Below are positions 56,315 through 60,052 of a stretch of DNA of 64,000 nucleotides, in pieces; within the stretch, counting starts at the first letter, position 1; every line of letters starts with the position of its first letter. Source of the DNA: Zoogloea oleivorans (GTDB lineage Bacteria > Pseudomonadota > Gammaproteobacteria > Burkholderiales > Rhodocyclaceae); contig JAOAUC010000002.1 of assembly GCA_030157785.1 (NCBI GenBank), positions 1 to 64,000 on the forward strand, written 5' to 3'. The notes under the pieces are model-generated. The model saw only the letters and a program-made list of their open reading frames with translations, did not search any database and was not told where the DNA came from. The position numbers were made by a program, and so were the translations under genes.

Positions 56315-58036
56315 ATGAGCTTCACTGTCCACGGTCTGGCCGTCTCCCAGGGCATTGCCATCGGGCATGCCCACCTGGTTTCCCACGCCCTGCTCGAAGT
56401 CGCCCACTTCACCGTCGCCCCGCGCCACGTGGAGGCCGAAGTAACGCGCCTGCGCAGCGCCGTCGCGGTGGTCAAGGCCGAACTCGCCGGGCTCAAGGCG
56501 GCCTCCGGCTCCGGCGCGGCGCCCTCCGAGGTGGATGCCTTCGTCGGCATGCACATCATGTTCCTCGAGGATCCGCTGCTCGCCGATGCCGCCGAGAACC
56601 TGATCCGTACCCGCCGGGCCAATGCCGAATGGGCGCTGGTCCAGCAAATGGAACATCTCGTCGAACAGTTCGAGGCCATCGAGGACGCCTACCTGCGCGA
56701 GCGCAAGTCCGACGTGGTGCAGGTCGTTGAACGGGTCGTCAAGGTTCTCCTCGGCCGCCCGGGGCATCTGCCGCCCAAGCGCAAGGACGGGCTGGGCACC
56801 ATCGTCGTCGCCCACGACCTGTCGCCCACCGATACCATCGGCTTCAAGGATCACGCCGTCGCCGGCTTCGTCACCGATGCGGGCGGCCCCACCGGCCACA
56901 CCGCCATCGTCGCCCGCAGCCTGTCGATCCCGGCCGTCGTCGCCCTGCGCCACATCCGCCATGTGGTCAAGGACGACGAGCTGATCATCATCGACGGCAC
57001 TCGTGGCGTGGTGATCATCGACCCCGACGAGCGGGTACTCGAGGAATACCGCCTGCGCAAGGCGACCATGGAGCTGGAACGCTCCAAGCTCAAGCGCCTC
57101 AAGTCCACCCGCGCGGCCACCCTCGACGGCGAAGAAGTGCAGATTCTCGCCAACATCGAGCTGCCCCCCGATGCGCTCCAGGCCAAGAACGTCGAAGCCG
57201 ACGGCGTCGGCCTGTTCCGCACCGAATTCCTGTTCATGAGCCGCGACACCTGGCCGGACGAGGACGAGCAGTTCGAGGCCTACAAGTCGGTGGTCAAGAC
57301 CATGGCCGGCAAGCCGGTCACCGTGCGCACCCTCGACGTCGGCGCTGACAAGGAACTCGAAGGCGCCACCCGCACCGAAGACAACCCGGCCCTCGGCCTG
57401 CGTGCCATCCGCTTCTGCCTGGCCGAGCCGAAGATGTTCCTGACCCAGCTGCGCGCGCTGCTCCGGGCCAGCCACTTCGGCAAGATGAAGATCCTCATCC
57501 CGATGCTGGCCAGCAGCCACGAGATCGACCAGACCCTGGTCCTCCTCGACAAGGCCAAGGCCCAGCTGCGCGAGCGCAAGATCAAGTTCGACGAAGCGGT
57601 ACCCGTCGGCGGCATGATCGAAGTGCCCGCGGCGGCCCTGTGCATCGGCGCCTTCACGCGCCGGCTGCAGTTCCTGTCCATCGGCACCAACGACCTGATC
57701 CAGTACACGCTGGCCATCGACCGGGGCAACGAGGCCGTCGCCCACCTCTACAACCCGCTCCACCCGGCTGTGCTGCGCCTCATCCACCAGACCATCCAGG
57801 CCGGCGCCAAGGCCGGCGTGCCGGTGTCGGTATGCGGAGAAATGGCCGGCGACCCCGAATGCGCCCGGCTGCTGATCGGCATGGGCCTGCGCCAGTTCTC
57901 GATGCATCCGGCACAGATCCTTGAGGTCAAGCAGGCCATCCTGCGCGCCGACGCCAGCGACCTGACGCCCAAGGTGCTGCGCCTGCTCAAGCTGGACGAC
58001 CCGGACCGGGTCCGCGAGGCGGTGGAGAAACTTTAG
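56315..58036 (+). CDS. ptsI: PTS enzyme I (phosphoenolpyruvate-protein phosphotransferase)
   Basis: From ATG 56315 the protein has 573 residues. The active His is in AGGPTGHTAIVARSLSIPAVV. The PEP-binding C-terminal barrel has DGVGLFRTEFLFM, LDVGADKEL, GTNDLIQYTLAIDR and CGEMAGDPE. It takes phosphate from PEP to HPr. GGGAGG lies ahead of the ATG. Confidence 0.97.
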   Translation: MSFTVHGLAVSQGIAIGHAHLVSHALLEVAHFTVAPRHVEAEVTRLRSAVAVVKAELAGLKAASGSGAAPSEVDAFVGMHIMFLEDPLLADAAENLIRTRRANAEWALVQQMEHLVEQFEAIEDAYLRERKSDVVQVVERVVKVLLGRPGHLPPKRKDGLGTIVVAHDLSPTDTIGFKDHAVAGFVTDAGGPTGHTAIVARSLSIPAVVALRHIRHVVKDDELIIIDGTRGVVIIDPDERVLEEYRLRKATMELERSKLKRLKSTRAATLDGEEVQILANIELPPDALQAKNVEADGVGLFRTEFLFMSRDTWPDEDEQFEAYKSVVKTMAGKPVTVRTLDVGADKELEGATRTEDNPALGLRAIRFCLAEPKMFLTQLRALLRASHFGKMKILIPMLASSHEIDQTLVLLDKAKAQLRERKIKFDEAVPVGGMIEVPAAALCIGAFTRRLQFLSIGTNDLIQYTLAIDRGNEAVAHLYNPLHPAVLRLIHQTIQAGAKAGVPVSVCGEMAGDPECARLLIGMGLRQFSMHPAQILEVKQAILRADASDLTPKVLRLLKLDDPDRVREAVEKL

Positions 58037-58040
58037 GGGC

Positions 58041-58128
58041 TGTAGGGGCGACTTCAGTCGCCCGCCTTTTCGTCGACCACCGGCAGGCCCTTGCCCGGAG
58101 TCCGCGGGCGACTGAAGTCGCCCCCACA
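58041..58128. repeat. REP-like palindromic repeat, copy 2
   Basis: Arms 58041-58063 and 58106-58128 are the same 23-bp inverted repeat seen at 14682-14753, with one mismatch in the right arm. The element starts 4 bp after the ptsI stop. The spacer between the arms differs from copy 1. Confidence 0.8.
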
Positions 58129-58192
58129 GCCCCCCTGCAATTCGCTCCCCGGGTTTGACTTGCGACCGACGCTCGCGCTAATCTTTGCCCCT

Positions 58193-58247
58193 CAGCGCCG
58201 ATTTGAACCCTTCAGCTTGCGGGCGCTTTACAAGTACGGCTAAAGCG
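58193..58247 (+). promoter_or_regulatory. SAM-II riboswitch upstream of metX
   Basis: GCGCCGATTTGAACC (58195-58209), CTTGCGGGCGC (58216-58226) and GTACGGCTAAAGCG (58234-58247) follow the SAM-II pattern: a GCGC stem with GAUUU-AACC, UUGC, the closing GCGC, then a pseudoknot strand ending GCUAAA. SAM-II aptamers bind S-adenosylmethionine and commonly precede metX or metA. The gene downstream is metX. The match comes from recalled consensus. Confidence 0.85.
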
Positions 58248-58253
58248 ACGGCA

Positions 58254-58287
58254 GCCCAGTCCGCGACCGTTCGCCGGCTGGGTTTTT
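58254..58287 (+). terminator. terminator between the SAM-II aptamer and metX
   Basis: GCCCAG (58254-58259) pairs with CTGGG (58278-58282). The stem extends inward through CCG-CGG and CGA-TCG pairs, and TTTTT (58283-58287) follows. It would stop transcription before metX, so control may be by attenuation as well as translation. Confidence 0.7.
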
Positions 58288-58308
58288 CGTTTTTGGGACG
58301 AAACACGA

Positions 58309-59439
58309 ATGCAACAAGCACCACAATCCGTCGGAACCGTCGTGCCCCAGCGGGCACACTTCACCGAGCCTCTGCCGCTGAAAAGTGGTGGCGTGCTGCC
58401 GGAATACGATCTCGTATATGAAACCTACGGCCAGCTCAACGCCGCGCGCAGCAACGCGGTGCTGGTTTGTCACGCCCTGTCCGGCTCCCATCACGTGGCC
58501 GGCACCTACGCCGACAAACCGGGCTCCGAAGGCTGGTGGGACAACCTGGTCGGCCCAGGCAAGCCGCTGGATACCGGCAAGTTCTTCGTCATCGGGGTGA
58601 ACAACCTGGGCGGCTGCTACGGCAGCTCCGGGCCCAATGCCATCAACCCGGCCACCGGCAAGCCGTGGGGCGCCGACTTCCCCTTCGTCACCGTCGAAGA
58701 CTGGGTGGACGCCCAGGCCCGCCTGGCCGACCGGCTCGGCATCGAGCGTTTCGCCGCGGTGGTCGGCGGCAGCCTCGGCGGCATGCAGGCCCTGTCGTGG
58801 ACGCTGCAGTACCCCGACCGGGTCGGCCACGCGCTGGTGATTGCCTCCGCCCCGAAGCTCACCGCCCAGAACATCGCCTTCAACGAAGTGGCCCGCCAGG
58901 CCATCCTGAAAGATCCGGAATTCCACGGCGGCCACTACTACGAGCACGGCGTGGTGCCCACCCGCGGCCTCGCCCTGGCGCGCATGATCGGCCACATCAC
59001 GTACCTGTCGGACGACGCCATGGGCCAGAAATTCGGCCGCACCCTTCGTCACGACAAGCCGGTGTTCAGCTACGACGTCGAGTTCGAAATCGAGTCCTAC
59101 CTGCGCTATCAGGGCGACAAGTTCGCCGGCTACTTCGACGCCAACACCTACCTGCTCACCACCAAGGCCCTCGACTACTACGACCCGGCCTTCGATTACG
59201 CCGGCGACCTGGTGGCCGCCCTCGGCCGCGCCAAGGCCGATTACCTGGTGGTGTCCTTCAGTACCGACTGGCGCTTCGCCCCGTCGCGCAGCCGCGAGAT
59301 CGTCTATGCCCTGATGCACAGCGACCGCCGGGTGAGCTACGCGGAGATCGACTGCGCCGCCGGCCACGACTCCTTCCTCCTCGACGAGCCCCAGTACCAC
59401 GCCGTGCTGCAGGCCTACATCGACAACATCCGGGTGTGA
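58309..59439 (+). CDS. metX: homoserine O-acyltransferase
   Basis: The 376-residue alpha/beta hydrolase has its nucleophile in [12 protein letters not shown], the Asp in SFSTDWRF and the His in AAGHDSFLL, plus the family stretch [17 protein letters not shown]. It acylates homoserine (acetyl or succinyl; not decided here) in methionine synthesis. It is controlled by the upstream SAM-II riboswitch and followed by metW after 10 bp. Confidence 0.97.
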
Positions 59440-59449
59440 GGACCGCGCC

Positions 59450-60052
59450 ATGAGTTTCCATCGCTTCGACTACGACGTGATCGCCAACTGGATCGAGCCC
59501 GGCGAACGGGTCCTCGACCTGGGCTGCGGCGACGGCGGCCTGCTGCGCTACCTGGGCGACGTGCGCCAGGTGCGCGGCTACGGCGTCGAGAACGACCCGG
59601 CGCGCCTGCTGGCCTGCGCCAAAAACGGCGTCAATGTCATCCAGATCGACATGGAGCAAGGCCTCGCCGGCTTTGACGACGGCTTCTTCGATCACGTCAT
59701 CATGAGCCTGTCCCTGCAGGCCATGCGCAACACCCAGGGCATCCTGCGCGAAATGCTGCGGGTCGGCCACGAAGCGGTGGTCAGCTTCCCCAACTTCGCC
59801 TACTGGCGGCACCGCCAGGCCATCCTCAACGGCCACATGCCGGTTTCCAAGAACCTGCCCTACGAGTGGTACGACACGCCCAACATCCGCTTCTTCACCA
59901 TCGCCGACTTTGACGTGCTGTGCGAGCAGGAAGGCATCGTGATCCTTGAGCGGCTGGCCTTCGACGAGGACAAGGTGATCCTCGACGAGCCCAACTTCCT
60001 CGCCAGCGTGGCCCTCTACCGGCTGGCCCGGAAGGACGCGGCGGCAGGCTGA
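59450..60052 (+). CDS. metW: methionine biosynthesis protein MetW
   Basis: The 200-residue protein has a methyltransferase-like motif (VLDLGCGDGGLLRYL), YGVENDPARLLAC and SFPNFAYWRHR. MetW is coupled to metX throughout proteobacteria and is thought to stimulate MetX. Same operon as metX. Confidence 0.96.
   Translation: MSFHRFDYDVIANWIEPGERVLDLGCGDGGLLRYLGDVRQVRGYGVENDPARLLACAKNGVNVIQIDMEQGLAGFDDGFFDHVIMSLSLQAMRNTQGILREMLRVGHEAVVSFPNFAYWRHRQAILNGHMPVSKNLPYEWYDTPNIRFFTIADFDVLCEQEGIVILERLAFDEDKVILDEPNFLASVALYRLARKDAAAG

Follow-up and report, generated by a model that had tools for sequence, protein, structure and literature searches.

The window analysed here, a stretch of 64,000 nucleotides from Zoogloea oleivorans (contig JAOAUC010000002.1), contains the gene order ptsH - ptsI - [leader] - metX - metW. 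The features of the leader and of the two genes behind it are as follows.

58155-58184, + strand: sigma-70-like promoter, TTGACT-18 nt-TAATCT, ending 9 nt before the aptamer
58194-58199, + strand: 5′ strand of P1, AGCGCC, pairing with 58222-58227
58200-58216, + strand: L1, containing the GAUUU triplex strand and the 5′ strand of P2 (58209-58216), from the sequence and the RF00521 alignment
58217-58220, + strand: UUGC, corresponding to U20 U21 G22 C23 of the SAM-II pocket in the RF00521 alignment
58222-58227, + strand: 3′ strand of P1, GGCGCU, pairing with 58194-58199 in a stem of 6 bp
58239-58244, + strand: GCUAAA, corresponding to G42-A47 in the RF00521 alignment, SAM pocket and 3′ strand of P2b
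58245-58251, + strand: GCGACGG, 3′ strand of P2a and also the candidate antiterminator strand
58254-58287, + strand: intrinsic terminator, CCCAGUC/GGCUGGG, a 1x1 mismatch, GCGA/UCGC and a CCGU loop (stem 58254-58282, U5 58283-58287)
58309-59439, + strand: metX, homoserine O-succinyltransferase MetX (NCBIfam NF047916, 668.7 bits, cut-off 560)
59450-60052, + strand: metW (NCBIfam TIGR02081, 248 bits, cut-off 189.5)

The transcript is expected to start near 58191. In the -10 of the promoter, just 3 of the 6 positions agree with the consensus, and a stricter promoter scan reported none at the metX leader. Between ptsI and this promoter, positions 58036-58133 form a 98-bp imperfect inverted repeat, a REP/MITE-like element found at about 40 places in the source genome (40/141 candidates scored; more are possible) and missing from the corresponding gap at two of the loci compared below (L035 and L036). 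Weak Rfam matches to PhrS and mir-540 on this repeat led nowhere.

The segment at 58194-58251, ahead of metX, was identified as a SAM-II aptamer (SAM_alpha, RF00521). In a covariance-model search, the check proposed in the initial annotation of this DNA, RF00521 matched 58185-58264 on the + strand over its full length (model positions 1-79 of 79) with 29.6 bits, at an E-value of 4.8e-5 over 301 bases and 1.8e-4 over the source genome. The aptamer therefore lies where it had been proposed, with the pocket residues described below, though the match is below the gathering score of 36 used in Rfam. Because 29.6 bits is under that score, the default Rfam scan of the window missed it and listed two tRNAs only. 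Another genome of the genus has a metX leader (L024) that scored 42.3 bits, which is over the cut-off. The element is the sole credible RF00521 match in the source genome, of which the assembly is 87% complete; the next match (C73, 17.7 bits, E 0.29) was without the core and was rejected as a second copy.

In the metX leader, P2b consists of G58219-C58240 (G22-C43) and C58220-G58239 (C23-G42), with triples at U58217 and U58218. P2a is short and broken, with the pairs C58213-G58247, U58212-A58248, C58210-G58250 and C58209-G58251 and with U58211 opposite C58249, and L2 has 11 nt. The uridines at 58202-58204 are taken to be U10-12 of the crystal sequence 2qwy. With this numbering assumed, every pocket residue named for SAM-II is present in the leader. 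The residues given as completely conserved are U10-12, U20, U21, G22, C23, G42, C43, U44 and A45-47 (PMC3764141; this and the PMC sources below are cited for the portions available). The leader shares with SAM-II (RF00521; Corbino et al. 2005) P1, the P2 pseudoknot, the GAUUU/UUGC/GCUAAA pocket and a target in methionine biosynthesis, as well as a promoter just before P1 and a terminator after P2. It is unlike typical SAM-II in its score under the gathering cut-off and in a P2a that is short and interrupted, as against the 5 bp present in 60% of SAM-II (PMC6061858), and it also differs by a betaproteobacterial P1/L1 consensus (GCGCCGAUUUG...CAGCUUGCGGGCGC).

A stem with five uridines had been noticed between the aptamer and the metX start, and it was found at 58254-58287. 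The region containing it (58245-58292) has a folding energy of -24.0 kcal/mol, compared with -15.6 +/- 3.1 for shuffled sequences (z = -2.71; 3 of 200 as good). The whole 111-nt leader was no more stable than its shuffles (z = -0.35) in this test, to which a pseudoknot is invisible. A simple terminator scan of the window did not list the stem at 58254-58287, presumably because the 1x1 mismatch breaks the rule of the scan.

For comparison, 202 loci (L numbers) were collected in three biased draws, namely the best RF00521 matches (62), the best 80 of 571 confirmed metX relatives and 60 hand-picked stretches, one of which (L200) was useless. The core search demanded UUU, UUGC, GCUAA and 5 of 6 P1 pairs, so that these features are conserved by construction. 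The core was present in 189 of the 202 loci and missing from 13. Each locus was then limited to one core, by which six were dropped, and once near-duplicates had been removed at 85%, 123 non-redundant elements remained; the shuffles and permutations applied to them ignore the relatedness of the elements. Of the 80 metX loci that were found through their protein, 72 had the core less than 200 nt upstream of metX on the same strand and eight lacked it (L073, L077, L081, L087, L090, L091, L100 and L111), with the near-miss GCUAAGG in its place at L100.

At the genome level, RF00521 matched at E <= 0.01 in 184 of 399 genomes of the order and in none of 14 control genomes. A match over the gathering score was found in 69 of the 399, and 115 of the 184 had none over the cut-off. 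At E 0.05, 2 of the 14 controls had a match, and the family set gave 179 of 297 genomes, 53 of them over the cut-off; since matches at E <= 10 occurred in all 14 controls, the threshold of 0.01 was relied on instead. The Rfam cut-off thus hides SAM-II in many genomes, many betaproteobacterial copies included.

Outside the demanded letters, the last A of GCUAAA (A47) was found in 123/123 elements, although it was favoured by the score, and GA preceded UUU in 120. The outermost pair of P1 was variously C-G, A-U, G-C or U-A. Of 49 position pairs tried, only P2a pair 15-51 (58212-58248) showed strong covariation, being paired in 88 of the 123 elements against 72.6 expected (0 of 2000 shuffles). 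The signal at 13-53 (58210-58250; 61 paired against 48.5 expected, p 0.0065) is weak for that number of trials and that at 19-48 marginal (p about 0.03), and pairs 14-52, 16-50 and 18-49, which are too conserved or unpaired, did not covary above shuffles.

The promoter and the terminator also recur. TTGAC was found upstream in 87 of the 122 non-redundant elements with 60 nt of upstream sequence (shuffles 9.2 +/- 2.7), and TTGAC followed at 16-19 nt by a loose -10 (at least 3/6) in 82 (shuffles 0.7 +/- 0.9); these promoters mostly lie 34-41 nt before P1. A terminator followed 113 of the 123 aptamers, compared with 16-30 (mean 23.1) in ten dinucleotide shuffles. By that measure some of these terminators may have arisen by chance; a case in point would be L129, which runs directly into its gene. 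The outermost five pairs of the 113 occurred in 51 different combinations, A-U pairs beside the U-tract included. This indicates that the predicted terminator stem is kept among the relatives while its letters vary. According to BLAST against three references, the genes downstream of the 123 elements are metX (55), metZ (31), metH (20) and others (17), and the three named genes are those which a SAM-sensing OFF switch would be expected to control.

We therefore read the element as a SAM-II riboswitch serving as a transcriptional OFF switch for metX-metW, with a probability of roughly 80%. The aptamer, its pocket residues, part of the pseudoknot pairs, the promoter, the terminator and the target genes are given by sequence and comparison. 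SAM is the probable ligand in this leader and termination would depend on it, and the antiterminator is supported for the group and not for the metX leader itself. The initial annotation had suggested attenuation of metX-metW by SAM, and both the SAM-II identity and the attenuation reading are supported by the covariance model, the pocket, some covariation in the pseudoknot, the promoter, the conservation of the terminator and the gene context. The surprise that it attached to this does not hold: SAM-II had been described as best known for translational control, whereas in published work the majority of SAM-II riboswitches are classed as transcriptional, betaproteobacteria are named, and in vivo support comes from two alphaproteobacteria, at least in the parts available. 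The leader is a new example of a switch type already described in related bacteria and, for the window, routine gene regulation.

Putative terminators were noted in many SAM-II representatives by Corbino et al. 2005 (PMC1273637). The SAM-II leader of metZ in S. meliloti (Scheuer et al. 2022, PMC9373788) is similar to the metX leader in having a predicted SAM-induced terminator, and it differs in belonging to an alphaproteobacterium and in its target gene. In rich (high-SAM) medium its RNA of about 100 nt went up and the mRNA went down; the precedent is not clean, as promoter activity fell and the short RNA was stabilised under the same condition (PMC9373788). In Gluconobacter, RNA-seq coverage of a SAM-II leader was 20-fold that of its ORF (PMC5756330). 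The parts available of PMC8386462, PMC13273304 and PMC2864571 held nothing on the metX-leader element, and PMC11508383 led nowhere for it.

In betaproteobacteria, an RNA element presented as "novel" and termed metXZ was described by Leyn et al. 2014 (PMC4239095); the available text does not name a ligand for it and lists SAM_alpha from Rhizobiales and Rhodobacterales only. That element has six conserved blocks, a pseudoknot of regions 1-4 and 2-6 followed by a terminator, and the targets metXW and metZ. Compared by description and not letter by letter, it agrees with the metX leader in lineage, targets, topology and terminator. It is very probably SAM-II missed by the cut-off, which would make SAM the likely ligand of a published but ligand-less element. 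A literature search found no paper equating the two, with most subscription journals outside its coverage. In the portion available, Leyn 2014 names only metX and metZ as targets. In our set metH follows 20 of the 123 elements, and loci with this arrangement include L007, L013, L015 and L028; a SAM-II element was also observed ahead of the SAM synthetase gene metK at L127 and L158 (TIGR01034) and, by eye, at L133 and L159.

In the mechanism that we propose, RNA polymerase would start just 5′ of P1, as the position of the promoter suggests. At high SAM, the ligand would bind the H-type pseudoknot P1/P2 and tie up the 3′ strand of P2 (GCUAAAGCGA), the stem 58254-58282 with U5 would form, and transcription would end after about 97 nt. 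At low SAM, P2 would be open and one of its strands would pair with the terminator, most plausibly GCGACGG with CCGUUCGC in the metX leader, so that the polymerase would read through into metXW. Off may be the default state, because RNAfold favours the terminator and already places it in the predicted minimum-energy state of the leader without ligand.

The pairing of P2 strands with terminators was examined in 113 elements. Paired with the terminator of its own leader, the better of the two P2 strands gave a mean duplex energy of -14.5 kcal/mol. The mean was -10.7 with shuffled terminators and -12.99 +/- 0.19 when terminators were permuted from one element to another, and none of 200 such permutations reached -14.5. 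The comparison with shuffles is partly an effect of base composition, as upstream 15-mers of the same leaders gave -12.7 kcal/mol with the same terminators (n = 112), not far from -14.5. Fifty of the 113 elements reached p <= 0.05 against their own shuffled terminators. When contiguous helices with G-U allowed were counted, at least 7 pairs were found in 70 elements (62.9 +/- 3.3 permuted, largest of 300 = 73), at least 8 in 38 (29.3 +/- 2.7, largest 38), at least 9 in 26 (18.4 +/- 2.3, largest 24) and at least 10 in 18 (10.1 +/- 2.3, largest 17). The longest runs had 13 pairs, in L194 with the 3′ strand and in L109 with the 5′ strand. This complementarity across the group beyond permuted partners suggests a strand-exchange antiterminator.

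In the metX leader itself, the complementarity did not exceed chance (p 0.25), and its longest runs had 7 and 5 pairs. When the 3′ arm of the terminator was left out of the RNA, GCGACGG was predicted to pair with CCGUUCGC at 58267-58274, a weak, single-sequence prediction, with an energy of -11.4 kcal/mol for 58240-58274 against -20.0 for the terminator core 58252-58284. Because this pairing overlaps P2a, SAM would be expected to block it. For betaproteobacterial SAM-II in general we put forward, at about even odds, that one P2 strand (CAGCUUGC or GGCUAAAGC) has its complement within the terminator, that SAM holds the P2 strands together, that one of them invades the terminator when SAM is absent, and that the complementarity is kept as the terminator sequence changes. 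The orphan metXZ element would then be SAM-II with a defined antiterminator, of which GCGACGG/CCGUUCGC would be the Zoogloea form. This offers a testable antiterminator for SAM-II, the transcriptional mechanism of which has little direct proof in the literature as far as it was covered.

The predicted minimum-energy state without ligand, and an antiterminator not above chance in the metX leader, would also suit a terminator that is independent of SAM, setting a low basal level of metXW and producing a leader RNA, with SAM affecting the stability of RNA or some other step. S. meliloti metA provides a parallel, with a validated terminator after a SAM-II aptamer that is not predicted to be SAM-responsive (PMC9373788). 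This explanation is unlikely, as a terminator follows 113 of 123 aptamers and, over the set, the terminators match the P2 strands better than permuted partners do, the complementarity extending to 13 pairs in L194 and L109.

Control of translation, with the Shine-Dalgarno sequence of metX hidden by P2, is established for the crystallised metX SAM-II (PMC10907184), and 9 of the 123 elements fit a pattern in which the aptamer tail contains a Shine-Dalgarno sequence and a start codon comes after it (L129, L135 and L144-L147 among them). For the present leader it is very improbable, since 64 nt, the terminator among them, separate GCUAAA from the metX start codon, and the Shine-Dalgarno-like GGGA at 58295-58298 is 3′ of the terminator. 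The metX leaders L135, L144-L147 and L129, which belong to one family, have GAGGUC directly after GCUAAA and a start codon a few bases on, and are likely to be direct translational SAM-II switches. A further group of metX leaders, from Paraburkholderia and Burkholderia (L093, L095-L099, L102-L106, L110, L112 and L114), has the SAM-II core with a long L2 insert. At E <= 0.5, neither of the two tested (L093 and L097) was matched by RF00521, and the terminator search found no terminator in the two non-redundant ones (L093 and L112). In L093, inspected by eye, GGCUAAA can pair with UUUAGCC, adjoining a CCGCC/GGCGG stem over the ribosome site.

That the stem merely terminates the upstream ptsI transcript and is unrelated to metX is hardly credible, because, although ptsI ends 218 nt before the stem (at 58036), the promoter and the aptamer of metX both precede the stem, and the same pair of aptamer and terminator recurs before metZ and metH. 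A look-alike pseudoknot of another class, with a new ligand or of the SAM-V type (RF01826), which has the same pocket and H-type pseudoknot fold and is translational (PMC6061858 for pocket and fold), is equally hard to credit, as the seven Rfam matches obtained for 58030-58330 at E <= 10 include no SAM family other than RF00521 and all SAM-II pocket residues are present; SAM-V was rejected because RF01826 had no match at E <= 10 in that region and the start codon is far from the aptamer core.

Several further arrangements were observed among the loci collected. At ten loci (L121, L137, L149, L165, L166, L167, L168, L176, L177 and L198), SAM-II precedes a small protein of about 100 aa with the motif M[FY]DC. 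In 10/10 of these, a second SAM-II-like aptamer, of the type GCGCCGA[G/T]UUAA..CGACAACUUGC..GCUAAAGCGUCG, follows the first terminator; the pattern finds 9 of the 10, and Rfam did not call it in the five tested (L149, L165, L167, L168 and L198). The protein had no Pfam match in three cases tested and no NCBIfam match in two, and the gene after it appears by eye to be MATE transporter-like in 8 of 9 loci (PF01554 in 3 of 3 tested). Tandem SAM-II is known from 44 cases (PMC9481103).

RF02424 (Bp2_287, termed a Burkholderia sRNA) gave weak matches opposite the SAM-II strand in 3 of 10 loci, all under the gathering score, and a match in the window:

L168, 1304-1462, - strand: RF02424 match, E 6.7e-4
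L184, 1331-1462, - strand: RF02424 match, E 0.027
L167, 1281-1423, + strand: RF02424 match, E 0.12
window, 58211-58279, - strand: RF02424 match, E 1.2

Bp2_287 was placed upstream of methionine genes by its authors (PMC3521395), and RF02424 may represent SAM-II taken in the wrong orientation. At L122, in a genome of the same order as that of the window, a SAM-V match under the threshold (600-666, - strand; 33.4 bits, gathering score 41, E 0.082) lies about 0.7 kb downstream of tandem SAM-II matches at 1501-1579 and 1398-1475 on the - strand.
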